Virus record (IMG/VR): IMGVR_UViG_3300025280_000067
Coordinates: 1 to 39,527 of that record
Reading direction: 5' to 3' (one strand)
DNA length: 39,527 nt
Source of the DNA: a virus
The notes under the pieces were generated by a model. The model ran no database searches. It was not told where the DNA came from and saw only the letters and a program-made list of their open reading frames with translations. The position numbers were made by a program, and so were the translations under genes. Shown here one piece after another: positions 2,490 to 37,130 of the stretch. Numbering within the stretch: the stretch's first letter is position 1; every line of letters starts with the position of its first letter.

Positions 2490-3089
2490 TTACACTAATT
2501 TTTGTGGACTATTTCCAACTGTACCATCTCCAGAGACTTCCATTATTGCCCAATCGTAACGAAGTGTTACGCTTATTGATACAAGATCCTCTGTTCCATA
2601 ATCCAGATCACCTAGACTCACTTCTGTAACGAATGGATTATGTAAGTACCATTGCTCAACTACATAGTTGTCTGGGTCTGACGATTCTGGGGCTGGTCCG
2701 AGTTGTTTAATAACGACCTGATTTAGTGAATCTGGTCCAACTGCGGCAGCTTTTGATATGGTTGTTGCCTGAGCCTCAGCGACATTAGAAGGAAAATTAT
2801 AGCCTGCTCCGAGAAGCATTCTGTATAGCATAGCAGTTGCATCGGGATTTACCGGATCAACCAAAGTTACCTCAACTGTACCCCACTCTACTCTACCGGG
2901 ATAATAAAAAGTGTGATTTAAATACTGATGTGGTGTCTCTGTTACAGTGAAACCCGGCTTGCTGACAGATTTAGCTACCCATTTTGATAGATTCCCGCCA
3001 TCAGAACCAAATTCCACGATAAACCGAAATCCTCTTTTCGGTTCTAATGTTGGATTGCTCCAAAAATTATTTGCGCTTGTTTCTGCCAT
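2490..3089 (-). CDS. gp19: Tail tube protein, gp19-like
   Basis: 199 codons, with a strong SD (AAGGAAGGAG) upstream of the ATG. The sequence has the tube-protein pattern: an N-terminal NPTLEPKRGFRFIVEF strand, SVSKPGFTVTETPHQYLNHTFYYPGRVEW in the first half, the segment VEVTLVDPVNPDATAMLYRML, and a C-terminal SISVTLRYDWAIME strand. Hexameric rings of this protein stack to form the rigid inner tube that is driven into the host when the sheath contracts. It follows the sheath gene directly, as in T4. Length is close to T4 gp19 (163 residues), slightly longer. Confidence 0.9.
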   Translation of the reverse strand: MAETSANNFWSNPTLEPKRGFRFIVEFGSDGGNLSKWVAKSVSKPGFTVTETPHQYLNHTFYYPGRVEWGTVEVTLVDPVNPDATAMLYRMLLGAGYNFPSNVAEAQATTISKAAAVGPDSLNQVVIKQLGPAPESSDPDNYVVEQWYLHNPFVTEVSLGDLDYGTEDLVSISVTLRYDWAIMEVSGDGTVGNSPQKLV

Positions 3090-3143
3090 TATTGTTTATC
3101 TCCTTCCTTTATGATAACTAGCCTTGTATATTTATTTTTCCTA

Positions 3144-6044
3144 TTAATCTTCAAAAGAAGCTCCAGAATTTGTAATTGTAAAATCAATTGCAATATATTC
3201 AATTGCTTTGGCTGGCTTTAAGAAGATTTTAGCATACATGATATTTCTATCAATCAAGTCTGGTGTGGTTGTTGTGCTGTCCAGAATTAATCTATAATCT
3301 TCTAGTCCAAATCGCGCCTTTACACTTTCAAGGAAGCTTCTTGCGCGAGCGTTGAATCGATTCCAAGTTGAAGAAACATTTTGATCAAATAGCGTTGTCG
3401 CAGCCATCCGAGAAATCTCTTTCTTGATGAAAATTAGAAGTCTGCGCACATTAACCCTATCCAATGCAGATGGCGTTACTTGTAATGTCTTTTGTCCGAA
3501 TATTACAATACCCTCGGCTGGAAATTGAGCAATGGGGTTGATATTTGCCTCGTATAGCTTGTCGCGTTCTTTAGATGTCAAGCGCTGGCGGATGCCAGTG
3601 ACAGGGAGTCCTGCTGCGCCTTCCGATAATCCGCCTCTGGTAAACCCTGCAGGGGCAAACCACAATTCAGATTTTCTTTGAGCGCTTGATAGCACTCCAA
3701 TAGCCACGATTGAGGGCGGAGCCCATAATTGCGCCCCACTAATGGTATCTTTAATTTGTACCCAGGGATAATAACATGCGCCATAGCTTGTGTTTAGCTC
3801 TCTATCTCGCATGTTGTTTACTGTTGTTGTAACATCTCCCTTGCGAGCAGTCTCAGATTTTGTGTTTTCCGTATTTGGAGTATAGCCACCTTCTACATCA
3901 ATGATAGCTAGAGCATCGCCTCGACTTTCACAAACCCTGATCGCATGGTCAGTAATGACGGTCTTGGTAACTCCGGGTACAGAAAGCAAGTTCATCTCTA
4001 CAACTTCGGGATCCGAAACAGTGTCAATGGCTCGCTTCAAGCTGTAATAAATATAGTTGCTTGCATCTGAAGTCCCAATAGATTCGTTTCTCAGTGGCTC
4101 TTTTTCATAGATATCGAGTCCATCGAACCCTCCGAACATTGGAGCGGTGAACCTATCAAAGCCATTGTTCAAAACGCCCTTATAAGATGCGCTAATTGCT
4201 GTGAATGAATTTTCTGCCGCCCTAGAGCCTGACACATATACTGCGCCAACTGATCCAGTGGGAATCAAGTCGTCCAAAGTAAACACAAAGGAGAACTCCG
4301 TAGCATCGCCCGTGCTGAATGAATCTGCATAATCAGGTAGTACTCTAACCGTATCTTTATAGCTTGGGTCAAATCTATTGTTGCCTGCTTGCGTAGTGTC
4401 GATTCCAAAATACGCCTCTTGGGGGTTTGCCATATCACCATCTGATGCTGACACTCTCAACGGAATAGATGGAAACAGGAAGGAAGCTGTAATTGCCATT
4501 CCTACTGAAGCTGTTCCCACTTCTACTAAGGGCGAGCCGCCATATGCACCCGCAATTGATTGGCAAATACTAGTATCTCCAGCGACCGCTACATTCTCAA
4601 AGTCGTTTGTGGTGCTGTTATCAGTTGGTGCGCCGCTGATGTCAATCGCTTTATCGGAGCCGGAAAGAACAACGAATCCTGTAAATCTAACAGGTCCGAA
4701 GAAGCCAAAAGGCAACAAGGTCGGATCTGTAGAGCCAGCGTCTACATCTTCATTCATTTCGACACGAACATACTTTGATTTATTTGGGTATGCTCCATAT
4801 GTACGATACCTTCTATCAGTATCATCCCATACAATATGTTGAGTACCGATTCGCCTACCAATATAATCTGATGAATATGGATTCAATGTGACATTGCTGT
4901 ATCTTTCAAGAATTCGTACCGCTCCATCGTGATCATCGGCTCTGCGTATTACCACAGAAAATGAGCCGTATGGGTCGAAGGTATTCGTTGAGGATTTAAG
5001 ATCTTGAATAGAAATTTTAATATTTGCTTGTTCCCATTCTCCATTATTAATTCCCTGTAATCTAAATAATTTATTTTGCTGTTCCGCATCAAAAGTACCA
5101 CTGTTGGTTGTAATATCTTGTGATATAAACCAGCCAGTTCGTGCATTTTGTGTGCCAAACTTAAAGTTTGAACCAACGCCAGAGGAGCCACTTTGTAGTC
5201 CAAGGATCATGCCGTATACACCGCCTGAACCGGTCTGGGACACATATCTTTCCACATGACGTTCATAAGTTGGTCCTAGGAAGTACTTCTTTCGCTGGTT
5301 GGTTCTTGTAACATCGTGATTGGTAAGAGTTGGGTTTGTGTTAAACACTTTTCTAACGTATCGGTCGGAAGATCTAGCGAAGTTAAATGCCGTGTCTTCT
5401 ACGATATTGCCACTCTTATCTTTAATGATGGCTCTAAACTGTCTCTTGGCGTCAGTTGACTGAAAAAGTCCTGCGGCTCCTGTTACTATGTTGCCGCCTC
5501 GCAAAGTACCAGATAAGGCAATTGCACCTTCGTTGAGATACCAAACTGCAGCCAATACGCCTGTTGCTGGCGTGGTACCAGCAGCGGCTGAGTTAATCAG
5601 GAACAGTCCATAAGCACCACCATTGGAGCCAATGGCTGCGGCATTCGACTTTTCGGTGGTTGATCCGCCTTCATCTGTTCTCCATCCCGCTTCACCACCA
5701 CCGCCATCTGTTACATCGGCATGCTGTGCTCCCAGTACTCTAACAATTGTTACAGGGGAGCTATTTCTTAAATATGCTTGTGCTGCATATGCCGCATAAG
5801 TAGGAGCCATGTAGTTGCCGTCACGCCAAACATCTCCGCCTCTACCTCCTGCGGATGGGTTACCAAAAATTTCAACAAATTCTGAAAAGGATTCCACCTT
5901 AACTGGTCTTAATCCTGGTCCTTTTTCAAATCTGCCAACTATAACGGGTCCAATTGGCTCAGGCGTTGCGGGTAATTGTGAATTATCAATTTCATCAATA
6001 AAGACGCCTGGAGAAACAAATTTAAATTTTCTTACATCTGACAT
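3144..6044 (-). CDS. gp18: Tail sheath protein, gp18-like, enlarged
   Basis: 966 codons with SD AAGGAG. The N-terminal core (residues about 1-105) has SPGVFIDEIDNSQLPATPE, the GPVIVGRFEKGP segment and the FSEFVEIFG motif. The C-terminal core (about 800-966) has QRLTSKERDKLYEANINPIA, GIVIFGQKTL, NVRRLLIFIKKEISRMA and the final IDFTITNSG strand; this is the contractile sheath signature. Six-fold rings of this protein surround the tube and contract on infection. It is about 300 residues longer than T4 gp18 (659 residues). The extra mass lies in the middle, where S/G/T-rich segments suggest added surface domains. A GACTATTTA motif lies 49 bases upstream. Confidence 0.93.
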   Translation of the reverse strand: MSDVRKFKFVSPGVFIDEIDNSQLPATPEPIGPVIVGRFEKGPGLRPVKVESFSEFVEIFGNPSAGGRGGDVWRDGNYMAPTYAAYAAQAYLRNSSPVTIVRVLGAQHADVTDGGGGEAGWRTDEGGSTTEKSNAAAIGSNGGAYGLFLINSAAAGTTPATGVLAAVWYLNEGAIALSGTLRGGNIVTGAAGLFQSTDAKRQFRAIIKDKSGNIVEDTAFNFARSSDRYVRKVFNTNPTLTNHDVTRTNQRKKYFLGPTYERHVERYVSQTGSGGVYGMILGLQSGSSGVGSNFKFGTQNARTGWFISQDITTNSGTFDAEQQNKLFRLQGINNGEWEQANIKISIQDLKSSTNTFDPYGSFSVVIRRADDHDGAVRILERYSNVTLNPYSSDYIGRRIGTQHIVWDDTDRRYRTYGAYPNKSKYVRVEMNEDVDAGSTDPTLLPFGFFGPVRFTGFVVLSGSDKAIDISGAPTDNSTTNDFENVAVAGDTSICQSIAGAYGGSPLVEVGTASVGMAITASFLFPSIPLRVSASDGDMANPQEAYFGIDTTQAGNNRFDPSYKDTVRVLPDYADSFSTGDATEFSFVFTLDDLIPTGSVGAVYVSGSRAAENSFTAISASYKGVLNNGFDRFTAPMFGGFDGLDIYEKEPLRNESIGTSDASNYIYYSLKRAIDTVSDPEVVEMNLLSVPGVTKTVITDHAIRVCESRGDALAIIDVEGGYTPNTENTKSETARKGDVTTTVNNMRDRELNTSYGACYYPWVQIKDTISGAQLWAPPSIVAIGVLSSAQRKSELWFAPAGFTRGGLSEGAAGLPVTGIRQRLTSKERDKLYEANINPIAQFPAEGIVIFGQKTLQVTPSALDRVNVRRLLIFIKKEISRMAATTLFDQNVSSTWNRFNARARSFLESVKARFGLEDYRLILDSTTTTPDLIDRNIMYAKIFLKPAKAIEYIAIDFTITNSGASFED

Positions 6045-6093
6045 GCGTAATGATCTCCTTATGACACTTAATTTGGGTGCGGTCTGTCGATAG

Positions 6094-6102
6094 TAAATAG
6101 TC
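6094..6102 (-). promoter_or_regulatory. GACTATTTA motif, candidate late promoter of the sheath gene
   Basis: Exact 9-base copy on the coding strand, 49 bases ahead of the sheath ATG at 6044, in an 80-base intergenic gap. Confidence 0.45.
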
Positions 6103-6124
6103 TACAAAATGCCTAAAATCCAAA

Positions 6125-7033
6125 TTACTCTCTATAAAACGGATCTGCGCTTCCTGAGATTTTTCTGTGCTGTGGCACATCTCCAAGTATGACATGCTCT
6201 TTAGGAAATGTTACTTCAACCGCATTTTCTCTATGTACAATTTTGGGCGTATCTTGGTTTTTGCCTGAGCCTATGATATGACCGAGTACACGCACATTAA
6301 TATCGGTCTTATATGAACGCTCTTCATCGCCTAAAGATGTGATATTGTTTTCGACTGCATACTCTGATTCAAAAAAAGCTTCATATTTATGGTTATCTTT
6401 TGATAGTACTTGATAATTTATTGGTCCACTGGATACCATAAACGGCATTATCATTTCGTTCATTTGTTGTTGGTATTCCGTCTTCAAAGTGAGTTTATAA
6501 TTTAATTCTAAATATAGTGGAATTGGGATTGATACAGATTTATAAACTACTTTTTTAGTTTTGCGCGGAAAATTAAGTTGCCCATGTCCTACATTTCTCT
6601 TGCCCATGGGTCCAGTCATTTTTTTTGATTCCGCATTAACAAAATTAGCCGTTTTGTCTTGATTGATAACTCTGGCAATTGTTATGTTGCCATTTTTATG
6701 ATCGCTCATGGGATTTCCCAACCCTCTAATAGAACCCTTTTTCTCTAAATCTTTAACAATCGATGTTCGCTCTATCACAATTAATGGAAGTTTTATGGCA
6801 CCTTTAACATCGCGCACATCTTGTTCGTTTTTAATCTGAAAAGCACGCTCTGCGCCTGCCCATATAATAGGTACCGGAATCCAGCCCTTATTGGTTTGTG
6901 TATGAATCTCTAGATTATCAAGATATTCGAATAAGGCGCGATCAATAGTCTCAATTGTAGAAGGTCTAATTTCTATTTCTTGAGTCTTGTTCTCATAATG
7001 ATCAGACTCATAATATTCATCATCAACAGGCAT
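6125..7033 (-). CDS. gp15: Tail completion / sheath terminator protein, gp15-like
   Basis: I place the start at ATG 7033 (MPVDDEYYESDHYEN, 302 codons) because AGAGGG lies 8 bases upstream. An in-frame ATG at 7072 would add 13 residues and has no good SD. The start overlaps the upstream gene by 11 bases. Gp15-type features are an early VPIIWAGAERAFQIK segment (compare VPITYASKEH in T4 gp15), LPLIVIERTS, then SVSIPIPLYLELNYKLTLKT with EMIMPFM, and a late SYKTDINVRVLGHII strand. In T4 this protein caps the top of tube and sheath and joins the neck. The order gp13-gp14-gp15 supports the call. Confidence 0.7.
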   Translation of the reverse strand: MPVDDEYYESDHYENKTQEIEIRPSTIETIDRALFEYLDNLEIHTQTNKGWIPVPIIWAGAERAFQIKNEQDVRDVKGAIKLPLIVIERTSIVKDLEKKGSIRGLGNPMSDHKNGNITIARVINQDKTANFVNAESKKMTGPMGKRNVGHGQLNFPRKTKKVVYKSVSIPIPLYLELNYKLTLKTEYQQQMNEMIMPFMVSSGPINYQVLSKDNHKYEAFFESEYAVENNITSLGDEERSYKTDINVRVLGHIIGSGKNQDTPKIVHRENAVEVTFPKEHVILGDVPQHRKISGSADPFYRE

Positions 7034-7517
7034 CGAATAGTCCCTCTCTAGATCTAATACATTTAGCAACAATTTCTAATTGATGATCAACCTGACCAAA
7101 TAATTGTTTTGGCTCAGATAAGCTAACAATTTCATAGTATATATCGCCGTAGTAAACAAAGTCCCCTTCTCTAACATATAGTTCTTGGTCTTCTGTTAGT
7201 CTTCTTTTGTGGAAATAAACAGTAATGTTGGATATTTTGTCCATTCCAATAGCTGTATCTGCCTTTGTTTGTAGTCCTTCATAGTCTACTAAAACATGAA
7301 CTCGTATAGGTGAGAGAAATGTTTTTTCAATAGCCTCGCCATATATATCGTGGTAATTTGTATGTTCCCGACTTAGCGGATAATATACAACTTGTTGACC
7401 AATTACTCTTTCAATTAATTCGTCATTAACTTGTTTAACCAAATTTCTTTCTTTTTCCCCTATAAATAATGGGGGGGGCGGATTATCTGGCTGATCCCAT
7501 TTGTTGCCTCCTGACAT
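7023..7517 (-). CDS. gp14: Neck / head-tail connector protein, gp14-like
   Basis: 164 codons, SD AAAGGAG six bases before the ATG. The protein has LVKQVNDELIERVIGQQVVYYPL followed by EAIEKTFLSPIRVHVLV, then LYVREGDFVYYGDIYYEIV and a final GQVDHQLEIVAKC strand. This matches the general layout of gp14-type neck proteins (helix, YxPR-like segment, small beta barrel). It is shorter than T4 gp14 (256 residues). The position between the gp13-like and gp15-like genes is the main support. A run of eight C bases near the start encodes NPPPP. Confidence 0.6.
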   Translation of the reverse strand: MSGGNKWDQPDNPPPPLFIGEKERNLVKQVNDELIERVIGQQVVYYPLSREHTNYHDIYGEAIEKTFLSPIRVHVLVDYEGLQTKADTAIGMDKISNITVYFHKRRLTEDQELYVREGDFVYYGDIYYEIVSLSEPKQLFGQVDHQLEIVAKCIRSREGLFDAC

Positions 7518-26794: not shown

Positions 26795-28390
26795 TTATCC
26801 TTTATAAAGCCAAGAATACTTTTCCATCATTTTCTTTGCTTTGTCATCTAGACTATTTTTTTGTGTATCCCGTCTTGGATCGTATCCTTTTTGCCCTTTA
26901 ATAGTGGTTTGCAATGTTGTTCGCGCAAGGAACATAGATTCTAAAAAGGCTTTCTTGTATGCAATATCTTTCTTATTCATTTCAAATGCCGTATCTCTAA
27001 CCCAACATCCAATTGCTAATGCCATAGTGAGATCATCGTTATATCCTCTCATCGCCTCCGGTCTACCATTGTTCCAAATAAAAGTTTTTAATTCATTTAT
27101 AGTTCTAGATGAATATACTGTAATTAGTTTATTTCTAATGAATTCCTCTAATTTTGCAATAATCAACGGTCTTGTTTTGGACGATGTTGTAAAGCCTGCC
27201 ACAGCATTAGACATATTTTCCGCTCTTACTTGTTCAACATATTCGTGCGTTGATTTAATTGAAAAATATATATTTGTATAACCTCGTTCTCTCAGCTTGT
27301 CTAAAACTGTAAACCCAACGGAATTATTTTCAACAACCACCATGCAATTGCCATATTCCTTTCCAGCGCTCATAACAATATCTGTAAAAAGATCAGGAGT
27401 TGCTTTGCCTTGATAATCGGCAATTATTTCCATTGTATCTAATTTTAATATATGAAATGTGGAACTATCTTGACCATCACCTCTAGCCACATCTGCTGTT
27501 AAAAGATATGTACATTCTGGTTGATAGTTTTCCCAAATCCAAAAATTTCTATCAAAGCCTGTACGATATTTGGGTTCAACGATCTTTTCTTCAAGCCAAA
27601 CGATATCGTCTGGGTGAATAACCGTTTCTCCAGACATGTTAAAATTACATTCTAATTCTTGTGCAATTTGCCTGCGAGACATATTTTTTGTTTCATTCTC
27701 ATACCATTCTATATCTCTGTCTGGGTGTACTTCCCAGCGAAGCTTCGTTGAAAAAAAATCATTCATACCTTGTTCGGCATCAATATATGTTTGGTGAAAC
27801 CAGTTTCCCACACCATTTGGAGTAGATAAGGCAATACATCGCCCGCCTGTTGATAGTGTCGGGTACAGACCAGTCCACAATTCTTCCAAACCCTCAACAT
27901 GTGCCGCCTCATCAATTACCAACAAAGATAGCGCTTCTGAACGTCCGGCATCTGCACTAGTTGAAGAGGCTTTGATTTCGGATCCGTTAGAAAGAACAAA
28001 TGATGCTCTGTTGTCTATGGTGATATCCGCAATACGTAACCATGGTGGCATGTGCTTAATTATTGATTTAACTTTTTTTACTAAATTTGTTGCGGTTTGA
28101 AATTTGGTGGCAATAACAAGAATATTTTTATTTCTATGAAACAGCATTAGCCATACAACATATGCTGCCGTAATGGTGGAAATGCCAAGTTGCCTAGCTT
28201 TAAGTATTACATTGAATCTATGTTCATTGAAATTTTTAAGTAACTCGTCTTGAAAGTCATACGTCTTAAAAGATATTAGCCCATCAATTGGGTGAGAAAT
28301 TTTGGCATAGTTATTAATAAAATAAGCGGGATCTTTCCCGCTCATCACGATTTCTTTTAATATTTCCTTTTTTGTAAGCTGGTAGCCCAT
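26795..28390 (-). CDS. gp17: Terminase large subunit, gp17-like
   Basis: 531 codons; the ATG overlaps the stop of the upstream gene (TAATG). The ATPase domain has a Walker A-like ARQLGIST (about 65-72), Walker B LLVIDEAAH (about 156-164) and the coupling motif ALSTPNG. The RNase H-like nuclease domain has D300 in TADVARGDG, E354 in VVVENNSVG and YNDDL near residue 475. The enzyme drives DNA into the prohead through the portal and cuts the concatemer. It stands directly before the portal gene here, whereas in T4 genes 18 and 19 lie between them. Length is near T4 gp17 (610), slightly short. Confidence 0.96.
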   Translation of the reverse strand: MGYQLTKKEILKEIVMSGKDPAYFINNYAKISHPIDGLISFKTYDFQDELLKNFNEHRFNVILKARQLGISTITAAYVVWLMLFHRNKNILVIATKFQTATNLVKKVKSIIKHMPPWLRIADITIDNRASFVLSNGSEIKASSTSADAGRSEALSLLVIDEAAHVEGLEELWTGLYPTLSTGGRCIALSTPNGVGNWFHQTYIDAEQGMNDFFSTKLRWEVHPDRDIEWYENETKNMSRRQIAQELECNFNMSGETVIHPDDIVWLEEKIVEPKYRTGFDRNFWIWENYQPECTYLLTADVARGDGQDSSTFHILKLDTMEIIADYQGKATPDLFTDIVMSAGKEYGNCMVVVENNSVGFTVLDKLRERGYTNIYFSIKSTHEYVEQVRAENMSNAVAGFTTSSKTRPLIIAKLEEFIRNKLITVYSSRTINELKTFIWNNGRPEAMRGYNDDLTMALAIGCWVRDTAFEMNKKDIAYKKAFLESMFLARTTLQTTIKGQKGYDPRRDTQKNSLDDKAKKMMEKYSWLYKG

Positions 28391-28968: not shown

Positions 28969-29358
28969 TTATTCTCCTTCATTTGGTCGCCACCCTGATA
29001 GCCATCGTTCCTCTCGGAATTCGACCCATTTAATATAACAATCGTGACAACAATTAAACTTATTCATATAAACATCATCTCTGCCATCAAAAGAATAAAT
29101 ACCGCATACCGGGCATTTTCTATTTGATTCTCTATTAAGTAGTTTTTTAGAGATTAAAAAACCATCCACTTCTATTTTTTCGGTTTTTTCAGCTATAGTA
29201 TTTTGTTTTTGTGCCAATTCTTCGATTTGTGTTAAGTAATCGTCTTCCTTCTCTTTGTTCCAAAATTTTTTTGGATTTTGTACAGCCTCATTGCCGTATT
29301 TTTTTTGAATGGCTTGTTCTATTTTTACAATATAATTTGGATCTTTTTTCTTTGTCAT
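28969..29358 (-). CDS. Small zinc-ribbon protein upstream of terminase
   Basis: 129 codons; the ATG overlaps the stop of the upstream gene by 4 bases. The N-terminal half is a charged helical region. The C-terminal half has C82-x2-C85 and C104-x2-C107 (plus C103), a likely zinc ribbon, followed by IKWVEFREERWLSGWRPNEG. Such a ribbon can bind nucleic acid or protein. It is co-transcribed with the terminase genes, so a packaging or transcription role is conceivable, but no function is known to me. Confidence 0.75.
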   Translation of the reverse strand: MTKKKDPNYIVKIEQAIQKKYGNEAVQNPKKFWNKEKEDDYLTQIEELAQKQNTIAEKTEKIEVDGFLISKKLLNRESNRKCPVCGIYSFDGRDDVYMNKFNCCHDCYIKWVEFREERWLSGWRPNEGE

Positions 29359-29822
29359 TGCGAATTAACAATTTGATTGGTGGCAAAAAATACACCTAAT
29401 GATAAACCAATACCAGCTACTGTGCCGCCTAGTAGCCACCAATCATTATTTTTATTTGGCTGCTCAAGAGCCATTTCACGATATGTATCGATTTCTAACT
29501 CTTTCGCTTCAATCAGTAAATTTAATCTTTCATTTTGTGCGTTTGCGCTCGCATTCAAACTATCAATTTGTAATGTATATCTAGCCTCTAATTTGGCTAA
29601 TTCATATTCAACCCTTAAATCGCATTCAGACATTGAATATTGATGCTCTGTGATCAACTGCGCGGTTGCTACAGGATTAAATAGCGTTCCTGCAAACGGT
29701 GCCGGTTCTCCTAGCTCCAGGTGTGTATATTTTGGCACATCAGAACTATTATCTTGAGCATAAGCAGGGCTATACACAAGCAAGGTACAACATAATATTT
29801 GTGCAATAATTTTATTCAACAT
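29355..29822 (-). CDS. Exported coiled-coil protein with C-terminal membrane anchor
   Basis: I choose ATG 29822 (MLNKIIAQILCC, 155 codons) with GGA upstream; it overlaps the previous gene by 11 bases. An ATG at 29840 would add six residues. The start looks like a signal peptide with a signal-peptidase I site after PAYA and before QDN. No lipobox is seen. The middle (about 60-115) is a coiled coil. WWLLGGTVAGIGLSLGVFFA near the end is a membrane span. The product would be periplasmic and anchored in the inner membrane. Together with the next two genes upstream it may form an envelope or lysis set. A non-canonical spanin is possible. Confidence 0.75.
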   Translation of the reverse strand: MLNKIIAQILCCTLLVYSPAYAQDNSSDVPKYTHLELGEPAPFAGTLFNPVATAQLITEHQYSMSECDLRVEYELAKLEARYTLQIDSLNASANAQNERLNLLIEAKELEIDTYREMALEQPNKNNDWWLLGGTVAGIGLSLGVFFATNQIVNSQ

Positions 29823-30216
29823 ATTCAAATCCAAATTCATCTAAAAGTGTTTTGTTTAGATTGCTCGGATCATTATGATATTGATTCACAATCTCTTTAA
29901 TTCTTGCTCGTTTGTCAAATTTTAATTGTTGTGAAGCGCTCTTATGCGCATCTTCAATTTGATCTAAAATACTATTATATTTTTGTATCGCTTTGTCTCT
30001 ATTCTCAATTTCTTGTTTATATGTTTTGTTAATGCCATCAATTTGGCTTTGATAGCTTTGCTTTGTTGCATCTAATACTTTCATTGCTGCGTCTGTATTT
30101 TTGCGAGACACAAACCAAATAATAAATGTCCATGCAAACAAAAATAACATTTTCCAATGATGCTTAATCCAAAGCCAACTTTTATTCAAGAACAGCTTAA
30201 TAGCTAATAAATTCAT
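29812..30216 (-). CDS. Membrane-anchored coiled-coil protein (spanin-like)
   Basis: I choose ATG 30216 (MNLLAIKLFLNKSW, 134 codons), seven bases after GGAG and two bases after the upstream stop. A GTG at 30222 is too close to the SD. One membrane span (MLFLFAWTFIIWFV, about residues 22-36) is followed by a coiled coil over about 45-95, then a charged end finishing LLDEFGFEYVE. N-in topology would place the coiled coil in the periplasm, as in inner-membrane spanins. Overlap with the next exported coiled-coil gene is also spanin-like. Role inferred. Confidence 0.75.
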   Translation of the reverse strand: MNLLAIKLFLNKSWLWIKHHWKMLFLFAWTFIIWFVSRKNTDAAMKVLDATKQSYQSQIDGINKTYKQEIENRDKAIQKYNSILDQIEDAHKSASQQLKFDKRARIKEIVNQYHNDPSNLNKTLLDEFGFEYVE

Positions 30217-30218
30217 AC

Positions 30219-30416
30219 TCACTCTCCATATTTATAAACCTTCATAATATCAACAGCACCCTGGGTGCCAATGTATACCATTGCGATCAGTCCCCATGTT
30301 TCAGATGTTAAGTCTGACCATATCATCAATCCTGTTGCAGTAAGAAAAGTTAATAACTTTCTTGATATTACCTTATATAATATTCTATCTAATACTCCCT
30401 GCATTGTTCTTCCCAT
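30219..30416 (-). CDS. Small two-span membrane protein (holin-like)
   Basis: 65 codons, AGAGG ten bases before the ATG. The N-terminal 20 residues are amphipathic and basic (VLDRILYKVISRK). Two hydrophobic segments (LLTFLTATGLMIW and WGLIAMVYIGTQGAV) are separated by a short polar turn, and a charged tail KVYKYGE follows. Size and topology fit small class II-type holins, but no family is recognised. It opens the three-gene membrane set just after the gp47-gp46 fusion. Confidence 0.7.
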   Translation of the reverse strand: MGRTMQGVLDRILYKVISRKLLTFLTATGLMIWSDLTSETWGLIAMVYIGTQGAVDIMKVYKYGE

Positions 30417-30434: not shown

Positions 30435-33400
30435 TTATTGGTTAACGCATGCATAATCATTATGCTTATCAATGTTAATTACTGTATCTACACAATCTTT
30501 TAAAGAATCCAAGTGAGATATCATAATAACTACCCTGAAATAAGATTTTACCATATCTAATATTCTGATAAAACCTTCTAAATTTTCTGCGTCCAGGGAT
30601 GTGCCCGGTTCGTCTAATATAAAAATATTCGACTTTGGCAAGTTTGAAACTGAAAGCAACGACAGTCTGATGGCCATTGCTGCAATTGTTTTTTCGGCAC
30701 CGGATCCCATTTCAATTGGTCGTGGATCGTGTTTTGGGTGCTTAATAAAAATATTTAACCTTCTGCCGTCGTCTTCAAAGAATACTTCAAAATCCACGAT
30801 ATTGGCTAGTACTTTTGCTATTTCTTCGTTAATGATTGGAAGTTTATTTTTAATGATGTCATAGGATATTCCACCCGTATGCATACATTGCATGAATAAA
30901 TCATATGCTGCATATTCTTCTCTTAAGTTATTCAATTCCTCTTTCTGTTCTCGTAGGTTGGTTAATTTTTGTTCACATGAGCCATGAGTTACATATAATA
31001 ATTGTAGCTCCTCCTCACAATCAACTAAATTGCTTTTTGTTGATTCAATTTTGTTTGCAATGGTGTTCTTTTTGTTTATTAAGTTTTGAGTATTGTCAAT
31101 AATTTCTTGATTTTTTTCATACTCTAAAATCTTATTTTGTAGTTCCTCCACTTCCTTTACAAGCATTTCCTGTCTTGTGTTGTTGTTTGTAATTTCTAGT
31201 GAAAATATAGAAATTTCATTTTGCGTATCTTTTAACTTTCCTAATAGCTGATTATGCTTGTCTAAATGATCTTCTATATTTTCTGCTCCCAGGTTGTCTA
31301 TATCCTCTATTAAAGCAATGCTGTTGGTTCTAAGATCTTTAATATTGTCTATCGCACCAGGAAGCTCTTCTTGTGCTTTGTGGGCATCACAAATGAATTT
31401 GCAATTTGGAAATTTATCGCCGCACGGGACTTCAGACAACAAGCGTACTCTTCTCCGAAATATTTCCACCTTATCATTCTTTTTGGACAAATCATCTAAA
31501 ATTTCTTCAAGATCTTTTTGTGTATCGGTCATAAGTTGTTTTTTATTTTCTAAATCAACAACATCAAATTGTTCCACAAACTTATTAATCTTTATTTCTA
31601 ATTCTTCCTTTTCTTGTTTCTGTTGCTGTAAAGTTATTAATGTTTCAATGGCACTTTTTAACTCTGATTGCTTTTGGGTTAAATCATTTTTGGAACCATG
31701 GATGTCAATAATTTCTACAGGTGTTGCGCCAATAGTTTCATTTATCTTAGAAAGCTGTTGGGTTAACTTCGTTATGGTGTCGTTATATTTTTTACATTGT
31801 TGTTTGTGCTGTGTTATTTGCTCATTACTATCTTCTAGTGTGTTTTGAGCCGTATCAATATCTGCGTCAAATTCCCTGCCTTCTAGTCGCTTAAGCGCTC
31901 CACGCAGATCTGCAGCGTCTTCTTTAGCCATTTTAAACTTTTTATCAAAAAGTTCTAAATCAAGAAATTTAGCTAGTATTTCTTTTCTTTTTGTAGAACC
32001 CTCTTTAATAAATGATAGCGAATCAAGCTGTGACGCCATAGATGTAAGCAAAAAATCTTCTATCGTGCCGAACATCTTTCTAATGTTTTTATCTGTATCG
32101 TTTCTTGACAGCCCATTACAGCTTATAACTTCATTATCAAAATCACTACAATAATTAAAATCTACAACTGTTTTGGCTTCAAGCGTTTCTTCGCCTTTAA
32201 GTTTTTTAGTATATTTTTCCGATGTTCTTTCAATAGTGTAAAGCTTATCACCAACTCTAATCTTAACTGTGCCCACACCCAAATCTTTATTTTGGTTTAT
32301 AATATTTAAATTCTTTCTTTCGTTTTTGGATGTAGAGTTAAAAATTGTATATAGCATTCCATCTACAATGCTTGATTTACCAGAATAGTTTTTGCCGAAT
32401 ATACCAACTATTCCATTAAGCTTTTTAATATCAAGTTCATTGCCTTCGTCATAATTAAATAAATTGTCCCATTGAAATGACTCAAGTTGCCAATTAATAT
32501 TTCTAGCTACCTCTTCGGTTGCTTCGATTGTTTGATTATATTTTGTATTTAAATCAAAAATTCGTTCCATAATCTCATCATCAACTTCATAATCTTTTAA
32601 AAATTGACGTATTAATTTCTTCTGGACGCCAACATCTCGTAGATTTTCTTTGATAAAATTGTTATTTTGCGCATCAAGCCCATTCCTTGTTCCCAGCGCT
32701 CTATTCAAAAATGTAATGCTTTCTGGTTTAAACCGATGTTTTGCCACATCGACCGCGTGCTTCATCTTATCTAAAGGAAGATTATTGTTAGATACAAGGC
32801 GTAAGCGAGCGCCGATGGGCACATCAATGCTTTTTGGCATTCTGCCTTTAGGGGTTAACTCTATTGTGATAAAAGGCTTGGGATTCTTAATTTCGACATG
32901 TTTAACGTTAAATACATCTTTGTCAGCAATGTCCCAAATTAAATATCCTTTATTATCCTCTTCTCCATGATTTTGCTGTATAGTGCTGCCAGCATATTGT
33001 ATCCGTTGTTTGTAATCCAAGCTTTGTTTTTTGTGAATATCACCAAGCATAGCGTAGTCAAAATTATCAAATATTTCAAGTTCGTGTTCGCCATGCTCCA
33101 TAACCCAGCCTTTGTCTGTTCTACAATTGCTGATTGAGCCGTGATATAGCGCAATATTAACCTTGTTTGTGTCTGTGGGATCGATCCAATTTTCTTCATC
33201 AAACACAGAAAGCACATTTAAACAAAATTTATCATTAAGATGTGTTTCGCCAGAGTTCTTCAATAAATGAATATTAGGCAAATTTAGTGCTTGCACAATT
33301 GGCGTAATTGCATCTTGGCGATTGCTATTGCGTAAATTACCATCATGATTCCCAAGAATGATATATGTGGGTGCTATGCTTGCTAAATTAGTAAAAAAAT

Positions 33401-33584
33401 CTGAACATAATTCCACAAATTCTGGGGAGATTTGTGTTTTAGTGTGTGCAATATCTCCGCAATGGATAATACAATCTATGTTTTCTTCTTGTAGGGATTC
33501 GTATAATTCCTGAAATATCTTTCTATATTCATAATGATACTTCAAATTCTTAATATGCGTATCCGCGATGTGGGCAAACTTCAA
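30435..33584 (-). CDS. gp47-gp46: Fused Mre11/SbcD-type nuclease and Rad50/SbcC-type ATPase (T4 gp47 + gp46)
   Basis: One 1049-codon ORF. The start is TTG (33584) with AGGAG five to six bases upstream; no nearby ATG fits. Residues 1-240 carry all Mre11 phosphoesterase motifs: D8-x-H10, G43-D44, G78-N-H-D81, H148-G149 and G181-D-x-H184. Residues about 365-1049 are Rad50-like: Walker A GKNYSGKS at 397-404, Q-loop region near MASQLDS, long coiled coils, a hook region C721-x6-C728-x3-C732-x2-H735, signature GSGAEK, Walker B IFILDEP and the H-loop ISHLDS. In T4 these are two proteins acting together in recombination-dependent replication and host DNA degradation. The fusion fixes their ratio. Its own promoter lies upstream. 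Confidence 0.93.
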   Translation of the reverse strand: MKFAHIADTHIKNLKYHYEYRKIFQELYESLQEENIDCIIHCGDIAHTKTQISPEFVELCSDFFTNLASIAPTYIILGNHDGNLRNSNRQDAITPIVQALNLPNIHLLKNSGETHLNDKFCLNVLSVFDEENWIDPTDTNKVNIALYHGSISNCRTDKGWVMEHGEHELEIFDNFDYAMLGDIHKKQSLDYKQRIQYAGSTIQQNHGEEDNKGYLIWDIADKDVFNVKHVEIKNPKPFITIELTPKGRMPKSIDVPIGARLRLVSNNNLPLDKMKHAVDVAKHRFKPESITFLNRALGTRNGLDAQNNNFIKENLRDVGVQKKLIRQFLKDYEVDDEIMERIFDLNTKYNQTIEATEEVARNINWQLESFQWDNLFNYDEGNELDIKKLNGIVGIFGKNYSGKSSIVDGMLYTIFNSTSKNERKNLNIINQNKDLGVGTVKIRVGDKLYTIERTSEKYTKKLKGEETLEAKTVVDFNYCSDFDNEVISCNGLSRNDTDKNIRKMFGTIEDFLLTSMASQLDSLSFIKEGSTKRKEILAKFLDLELFDKKFKMAKEDAADLRGALKRLEGREFDADIDTAQNTLEDSNEQITQHKQQCKKYNDTITKLTQQLSKINETIGATPVEIIDIHGSKNDLTQKQSELKSAIETLITLQQQKQEKEELEIKINKFVEQFDVVDLENKKQLMTDTQKDLEEILDDLSKKNDKVEIFRRRVRLLSEVPCGDKFPNCKFICDAHKAQEELPGAIDNIKDLRTNSIALIEDIDNLGAENIEDHLDKHNQLLGKLKDTQNEISIFSLEITNNNTRQEMLVKEVEELQNKILEYEKNQEIIDNTQNLINKKNTIANKIESTKSNLVDCEEELQLLYVTHGSCEQKLTNLREQKEELNNLREEYAAYDLFMQCMHTGGISYDIIKNKLPIINEEIAKVLANIVDFEVFFEDDGRRLNIFIKHPKHDPRPIEMGSGAEKTIAAMAIRLSLLSVSNLPKSNIFILDEPGTSLDAENLEGFIRILDMVKSYFRVVIMISHLDSLKDCVDTVINIDKHNDYACVNQ

Positions 33585-35644: not shown

Positions 35645-36577
35645 CTATAACGCATTAATACTTGTCTCCAATAAATAGTCGTCTTGTGCTATAAAAGTGG
35701 CATTTTCTTTTCGTTTTTTAAATACTTCTTTTGTCATGCTGCCGACATCATCATATCCGCTGGTATCTATTTTATAAACTTCAACTCCGTAGTTAATAAA
35801 ATTTTTTATTATTCGCTGCTCTTTTTGTTGTGCATCTTGGTCAAGAGCAATGAAAACTGGCGTATCATGTATTACTATTGCTTGAAATAGTTTTGAGCTT
35901 TCCTTTAAAGTCGAGCCCAATAATGGCACAGAATTACGTCCAGCTATTATAGCATCAAAAACGCCTTCTGTAATTATTAAATCATCATCCCAATCCACAT
36001 AAAGCTCATTAAAAATTATATCTTTGCTTACCGAAGGATTGAGATATTTTTTCCAGGAACCGTTATATGTTCTTGCTATAAAATAGTTGACATATCCCTC
36101 TTGATCAAATGATGGAACTATAATTCTGTTTGCATAATACCCAGAAACACAATATCCAATTTTCCAATAAAGAATATCTTCTTTTGTTATGCCGCGATCT
36201 TTTAAATATTTTCTAGCCAACAATGATGTTAAAGGTATATTTTTGCTTACTAATGAATTGAATTCATCAGGCAGGGATGTGCGTTCAAAATTAACATCTT
36301 TTACAGTGTCAAAAAGATGCTCAAAATCTGTAATATTGACTTTGTTTGTTAATAGATCCCATTCTTGAAGTTGTGCAAATGTTCCGAAACGCCGGACCAC
36401 ACGTCTTAAATTGCGACCATTTGTATCGCAAACCCAACACTTGTATACATTCTTGTCAATATTGACAGATAATTTCTTTTTATGATGCTTGCAATATGGA
36501 CAATAAAACAAATATTCATCATTTGTTTTGTAATTATCGCCCAAAATTTTAATCAGAATTTGTCGTTTAGCGTTCAC
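35645..36577 (-). CDS. gp61: DNA primase, CHC2 zinc finger plus TOPRIM
   Basis: 310 codons with a GTG start at 36577. An in-frame TAA directly precedes it, so no earlier start is possible. Zinc-finger residues are C26-x2-C29 and C47-x2-C50. The TOPRIM domain shows ITEGVFDAI with E204 and ALDQDA with D246 and D248; DDVGSMTKE follows near 277. The enzyme makes RNA primers for lagging-strand DNA and in T4 works with the gp41 helicase, which is not in this window. It is a single primase unit without a fused helicase. The promoter at 36584-36612 would start RNA at or within a few bases of the GTG. Confidence 0.9.
   Translation of the reverse strand: MNAKRQILIKILGDNYKTNDEYLFYCPYCKHHKKKLSVNIDKNVYKCWVCDTNGRNLRRVVRRFGTFAQLQEWDLLTNKVNITDFEHLFDTVKDVNFERTSLPDEFNSLVSKNIPLTSLLARKYLKDRGITKEDILYWKIGYCVSGYYANRIIVPSFDQEGYVNYFIARTYNGSWKKYLNPSVSKDIIFNELYVDWDDDLIITEGVFDAIIAGRNSVPLLGSTLKESSKLFQAIVIHDTPVFIALDQDAQQKEQRIIKNFINYGVEVYKIDTSGYDDVGSMTKEVFKKRKENATFIAQDDYLLETSINAL
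35672..35680 (-). promoter_or_regulatory. GACTATTTA motif, candidate promoter of the small-gene string
   Basis: Exact copy on the coding strand within the primase end (DDYLLETS), 38 bases ahead of the ATG at 35633. Confidence 0.35.
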
Positions 36578-36583
36578 TTACTT

Positions 36584-36612
36584 ATTATAACTGACTATAA
36601 CAACAATGTCAA
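36584..36612 (-). promoter_or_regulatory. Perfect-consensus sigma-70 promoter ahead of primase
   Basis: On the coding strand TTGACA (36607-36612), 17 bases, then TATAAT (36584-36589). Both boxes match the consensus at all six positions, with the ideal spacing. Confidence 0.85.
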
Positions 36613-37130
36613 GCAATTATAGGTCCAGCCAGTGCCATTACTATTGCATCTGCCCTATCATCTGTTCCTGGTTGCGGATTGCCCTTGTAAGTTAAATTGT
36701 ATTTAAACTGCCCATTCATTTTATCTGCTATTTGCTCAACTATATAGGTCTTTTTTTGATTGCCCTTTAAGCCTCTAGGAACTTTAATATTTAATTTGGC
36801 TCTAGCAGAAGTGGGATTAATTAACGTTGCATTTTGATTAAAAATTTTTCTGATTGCGTAGCAGCACATACCATTAAATCTTTGTAATTTTGCCATGGTG
36901 AAGGCAGTAGTTTTACCACCCTTAAACATCAAAGCAGGCTGTTCAACATATATTTTATATGGCATATAATAATGCTCTATTTCTTTCATTCTTCTTTCGA
37001 ATTTTACTGCTCTTTCTTCCAATGATTCGCCCTGTTTAAATTTTAGCACTTCGCTAACTAAAATCTTATTTTCATCTAATACGGCGATACCAATTTTAGA
37101 AGAGCTTATATCAAGCCCTAATATTTTCAT
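36609..37130 (-). CDS. ruvC: RuvC-like Holliday junction resolvase
   Basis: 173 codons, ATG two bases after the upstream stop; no clear SD. The RNase H-like fold shows MKILGLDISSSKIGIAVLDE with D7, YVEQP with E63, and GTDDRADAIVMAL with D158 and D161, which match the four acidic catalytic residues of RuvC. The enzyme cuts four-way junctions symmetrically. Here it would resolve recombination intermediates before packaging, a role filled in T4 by endonuclease VII (gp49). Length matches E. coli RuvC (173). It lies with primase and the gp47-gp46 fusion. Confidence 0.9.
   Translation of the reverse strand: MKILGLDISSSKIGIAVLDENKILVSEVLKFKQGESLEERAVKFERRMKEIEHYYMPYKIYVEQPALMFKGGKTTAFTMAKLQRFNGMCCYAIRKIFNQNATLINPTSARAKLNIKVPRGLKGNQKKTYIVEQIADKMNGQFKYNLTYKGNPQPGTDDRADAIVMALAGPIIA

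Follow-up and report, generated by a model that had tools for sequence, protein, structure and literature searches.

The viral DNA analysed here, a stretch of 39,527 nucleotides referred to as the window, carries on its minus strand at positions 30435 to 33584 a gene for a fused SbcD/Mre11-SbcC/Rad50 protein of 1049 aa, recognized from its open reading frame and from matches in Pfam and PHROGs. As stated in the preliminary description, the frame is uninterrupted; its 1049 codons encode the nuclease first and the ATPase second, and the plus strand across the same interval contains many stops. Translation is assigned to a TTG, upstream of which ten more codons are open. Relatives have an ATG at the identical position, their protein beginning with MKFAHIADTHIKN, and thus the TTG is probably the correct start. 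The SbcD/Mre11 nuclease occupies residues 1–297 and the SbcC/Rad50 ATPase residues 361–1049. Pfam assigns Metallophos to residues 1–185 (E 3.7e-13), AAA_23 to residues 376–615 and SMC_N to a region reaching residue 1040, and the PHROGs matches are SbcD-like phrog_100 at residues 1–243 (4e-36) and SbcC-like phrog_77 at residues 210–1044 (8e-52). Solved structures related by sequence comprise archaeal Rad50 as well as bacterial and archaeal Mre11/SbcD.

The Mre11-type phosphoesterase domain spans residues 1–232 (positions 32889 to 33584, minus strand), with D8, H10, D44, N79, H80, H148, D182 and H184 as ligands, none of which varies among the 38 aligned fusions. All Mre11 motifs had previously been placed within the first 190 residues. 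Indeed, every position is present, but two motifs depart from the consensus throughout the 38 aligned fusions: GDxxD reads GDxxH (H47) and GHxH reads GDxH (D182). Because these motifs deviate from canonical Mre11, the nuclease could differ in metal or rate. In the predicted structure a capping domain follows at residues about 238–297 (32694 to 32873, minus strand), as also supported by structural alignment. Comparison of model residues 1–297 with SbcD/Mre11 nuclease and capping chains by VIA-align gave Z scores of 20–26, the best match reaching Z 25.9 with an rmsd of 3.5 over 273 residues.

The ATPase half is likewise encoded on the minus strand and has the usual split organization. An N-terminal lobe (residues 361–560; 31905 to 32504) contains Walker A at residues 397–404 and the Q-loop glutamine Q519, and is followed by a coiled coil delineated from the alignment and the model (residues 561–904; 30873 to 31904) and by a C-terminal lobe (residues 905–1049; 30438 to 30872). 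The latter holds the SGxE signature at 961–964, a Walker B motif ending in D991-E992, the D-loop at 997–998 and the H-loop residue H1024. The location of Walker A, signature and Walker B after residue 390, as originally described, is thus confirmed. The set of motifs, split by the coiled coil, is complete and nearly or fully invariant: K403/S404, Q519, S961-G962-E964, D991-E992, L997-D998 and H1024 are identical in all 38 aligned proteins.

The tip of the coiled coil is formed by residues 721–728, CGDKFPNC (31401 to 31424, minus strand). The zinc hook has been described as a CXXC motif conserved across all life forms and viruses (PMC5093744). The window lacks this canonical form but still presents a cysteine pair at the coil apex, C721-x6-C728. 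Two hook forms occur in the fusion family, the canonical CxxC and the CGxx[FY]xxC of the window; among 80 viral relatives (L003-L082), 51 have a CG...C[KR]F hook (Cys-x6-Cys, with x7 in one case) and 29 have CxxC. A tblastn search of named phages with the hook segment of the window returned nothing, a negative that carries little weight with so short and diverged a query. On a tree built from the head domains only, the two forms alternate, at least six changes being forced by well-supported branches, and their clustering was weak as compared to shuffled labels (41 and 51 of 500 as low). The sister proteins L004 and L071 carry different tip forms, with a good alignment of the coil on either side. 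Local exchange of the tip between hook forms is the simplest reading of these data, although repeated small indels may have generated the changes instead. Tentatively, the CGxx[FY]xxC tip might have been exchanged with CxxC on several occasions within an otherwise undisturbed protein, which would make it a naturally swappable dimerisation module in marine phages; we regard this as a possibility that is rather doubtful at present. A swappable tip would fit known behaviour, since an SMC hinge can replace the Rad50 hook in an engineered protein (Tatebe et al. 2020, PMC6969161). If true, the tip possibly decides which chains become partners during co-infection. The two hook types offer a small natural experiment on the purpose of the Rad50 tip.

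To describe the junction between the two halves, we used an AlphaFold2 model built from 37 window and virus sequences (mean pLDDT 78, pTM 0.53). The pLDDT drops to about 50 at the Walker A, signature and Walker B motifs, that is, the ATPase head including its active site is poorly modelled, and for this reason the arrangement of the nuclease on the head is one that we infer. Two helices, residues 318–328 and 336–356 (32517 to 32633, minus strand), are seen in the secondary structure of the model directly ahead of the ATPase, which starts at about residue 361. Fold comparison did not align them as a helix-loop-helix; judging from their position, they may correspond to the Rad50-binding helix-loop-helix of Mre11. 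Separate MR subunits already form 2:2 assemblies. Since the model retains the domains by which separate subunits bind, a conventional 2:2 complex is expected rather than a new geometry, and the fusion probably mimics the normal MR arrangement, i.e. a tethered ordinary complex. It remains plausible, as proposed in the preliminary description, that covalent linkage would hold nuclease and ATPase at 1:1 and restrict the seating of the nuclease. One might ask whether the fused gene nevertheless also yields free Rad50/gp46, either because translation starts internally or because a protease cuts the linker at residues 299–317. The segment 299–310 ahead of the helix pair is of low confidence in the model and may be flexible, and an internal methionine, M339, is found in 12 of the 38 sequences. 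However, none of the methionines close to where the ATPase part begins is conserved across the 38 aligned sequences, and the linker precedes the helix pair, so that cleavage there would yield no plain gp46. A separate gp46 product is thus unlikely.

The surroundings of the gene indicate the type of virus and the pathway concerned. Downstream, the large terminase subunit (26795 to 28390, minus strand) is the first gene of a T4-like head cassette, in which terminase, portal, head protease and major head protein, all of T4-like families, are followed by tail sheath and tube. The terminase-portal DNA has weak matches to Flavobacterium, Proteus and Microcystis myophages. Judged by this gene content, the carrier, a marine phage, is a T4-like myovirus. 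The tail sheath gene (3144 to 6044) encodes 966 aa, which is long for a T4-like sheath, and matches phrog_23 in two stretches, which suggests an inserted domain. Two overlapping small ORFs at 29355 to 30222, conserved in most relatives, separate the fusion from the terminase block; one is weakly Rz-like (spanin, phrog_6197) and the other has a signal-like N-terminus, and the two may constitute a lysis spanin pair. Upstream lie a DNA primase-like gene (35645 to 36577, minus strand) and, as the next gene, a RuvC-like Holliday junction resolvase (36609 to 37130, minus strand). Among loci whose flanks are long enough, almost all have a primase gene upstream, and this linkage extends to relatives of only 26–36% identity (Mel-JY01, the 484-kb LR756508, L090 and L092-L094). 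The RuvC-like gene is shared by most close relatives and LR756508. In view of the linkage to primase and resolvase, the fusion sits in a replication-recombination block.

We therefore consider it very likely that the gene encodes a gp47-gp46 end-processing complex fused into one polypeptide, which serves recombination-dependent replication in a marine T4-like myovirus; by homology, its role is most likely that of T4 gp47/gp46, i.e. end resection. In such a protein, nuclease, capping domain and helix pair would lead directly into the ATPase, tethering the nuclease in cis. Two chains would pair via their Mre11 domains, their ATP-bound Rad50 heads and the zinc hook to give the usual 2:2 complex, which would act on phage DNA ends, resecting or trimming them. 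The resulting 3' strands could invade homologous DNA and thereby feed recombination-dependent replication, alongside the primase and the RuvC-like resolvase. T4 gp46/47 also participates in host DNA breakdown, and the fusion gene adjoins the late head cassette, so one could imagine that the protein mainly degrades host DNA or counters a host defence that senses DNA ends. The near-constant linkage to primase, in most cases extending to the RuvC-like resolvase, argues against such a purpose, as does the finding that almost all jumbo phages have SbcCD among their core recombination genes (PMC7824862). We regard this alternative as unlikely.

A scan of IMG/VR detected homologues on 80 contigs, one of them 100% identical and the rest 44–63% identical over the best segment. 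Apart from truncations at contig ends, all 80 loci contain an unbroken nuclease-then-ATPase frame with the motifs in register; all of the 71 contigs that extend to the nuclease motif have single frames. An assembly artefact or sequencing error that merged two neighbouring genes, conceivable because in split cyanophages the two genes are near neighbours with unchanged order (a gap of about 420 bp in S-SKS1), has a negligible probability, given that the fusion recurs on 80 other contigs, mostly from other datasets, and in the isolate Mel-JY01, and that residues 296–398 spanning the junction align without a break among relatives. With fused relatives on so many independent contigs, a chance frame is excluded for practical purposes as well. 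In nine relatives with 155–194 kb of sequence, the sole SbcC-like and the sole SbcD-like match fall within the same fused frame. Thus, as far as the contigs show, these nine phages rely on the fused form. The window itself is a 39.5 kb fragment, so that its phage could have a second copy elsewhere.

Several further database matches were set aside. Matches to both domains on Vibrio megaplasmids turned out to be two genes, sbcD and sbcC, with only 9 bp between them, which tblastn read through, and matches in Listeria and Enterococcus are likewise split genes and not fusions. An apparent chromosomal copy in a WOR-3 bacterium (L089, 69% identical in the N-terminal half) lies on a scaffold with N runs and phage genes and is no evidence for a bacterial copy. 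This entry, CP070664.1, titled as a WOR-3 bacterium chromosome, includes a close phage relative with phage RuvC and primase genes that is joined through Ns into the MAG, probably owing to a binning or scaffolding error. A different case is the 484-kb phage LR756508.1 (L002, positions 2944 to 7169), where a 305-aa ORF interrupts the homologous gene just after the nuclease motif GDIHKRQKV. The insert has zinc-finger-like and endonuclease-like stretches and resembles a homing element in a conserved site; a search of the insert for an Rfam intron gave no match.

Virus-borne Mre11/Rad50 fusions have been known since 2011, and the window carries another member. The novelty implied by the preliminary description thus does not hold, as fusions precede it in the survey by Yoshida, Claverie and Ogata (2011), in Mel-JY01 and among annotated viral proteins matched by fold. 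Yoshida et al. reported fusions in Mimivirus (R555), Bacillus phage 0305phi8-36, plasmids of Clostridium kluyveri and Deferribacter, and several eukaryotes, and argued that both the order of the domains and the linker fit the MR structure (PMC3175470). The same study found R555 homologues in abundance in GOS, with enrichment in viral size fractions, and proposed that some were phage-borne, although the fusion proper was confirmed only in few long sequences (PMC3175470). Beyond that paper, the open-licence literature yielded no published account of the fusion in this phage group, and no biochemistry on the fusion family was found. R555 has the same Mre11-then-Rad50 order and, by the description given there, the same Asp-to-His change in GDxxD as well as His206 replaced by Asp (PMC3175470). 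That both active-site changes have been reported for R555 is a sign that the protein of the window is of this type; however, R555 comprises 1351 aa and belongs to an amoeba virus, whereas the protein of the window has 1049 aa and comes from a T4-like phage. The fused SbcDC of 0305phi8-36 (A7KV18, 769 aa) ranked 31st in the fold search (E 1.7e-15) and is described as missing the capping/HLH region along with one P-loop segment (PMC3175470). The same search against viral models also returned long SbcCD-type proteins from giant viruses and from Tenacibaculum phages PTm1 and pT24, as judged by annotation and length only. Microcystis phage Mel-JY01 (PP395634.1, 183173-186373, annotated as 'AAA domain containing protein') has a full-length fusion with 32% identity over the whole length and, like the window, a primase-like gene immediately upstream; it differs in having a CxxC hook, SGMEK in place of SGAEK, and DEG rather than DEP after Walker B.

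The contrast initially drawn with the separate gp47/gp46 of T4 and SbcD/SbcC of bacteria is correct. In the T4-like phages S-SKS1 and S-SRM01, the homologous domains occur in equal gene order, yet in separate genes of about 345 and 571–576 aa with small ORFs between them. Cellular SbcCD and Mre11-Rad50 share the folds and largely the catalytic motifs with the window, but consist of two polypeptides with canonical GDxxD and GHxH. A one-chain MR complex could suit structural work. Our data go beyond the 2011 survey in one respect: a large group of marine T4-like phages has the fused form as a rule, and no other SbcCD was found in its sampled members. Long contigs thereby turn the earlier short-read guess, that the fusion homologues of aquatic viromes belong to phages, into a result.
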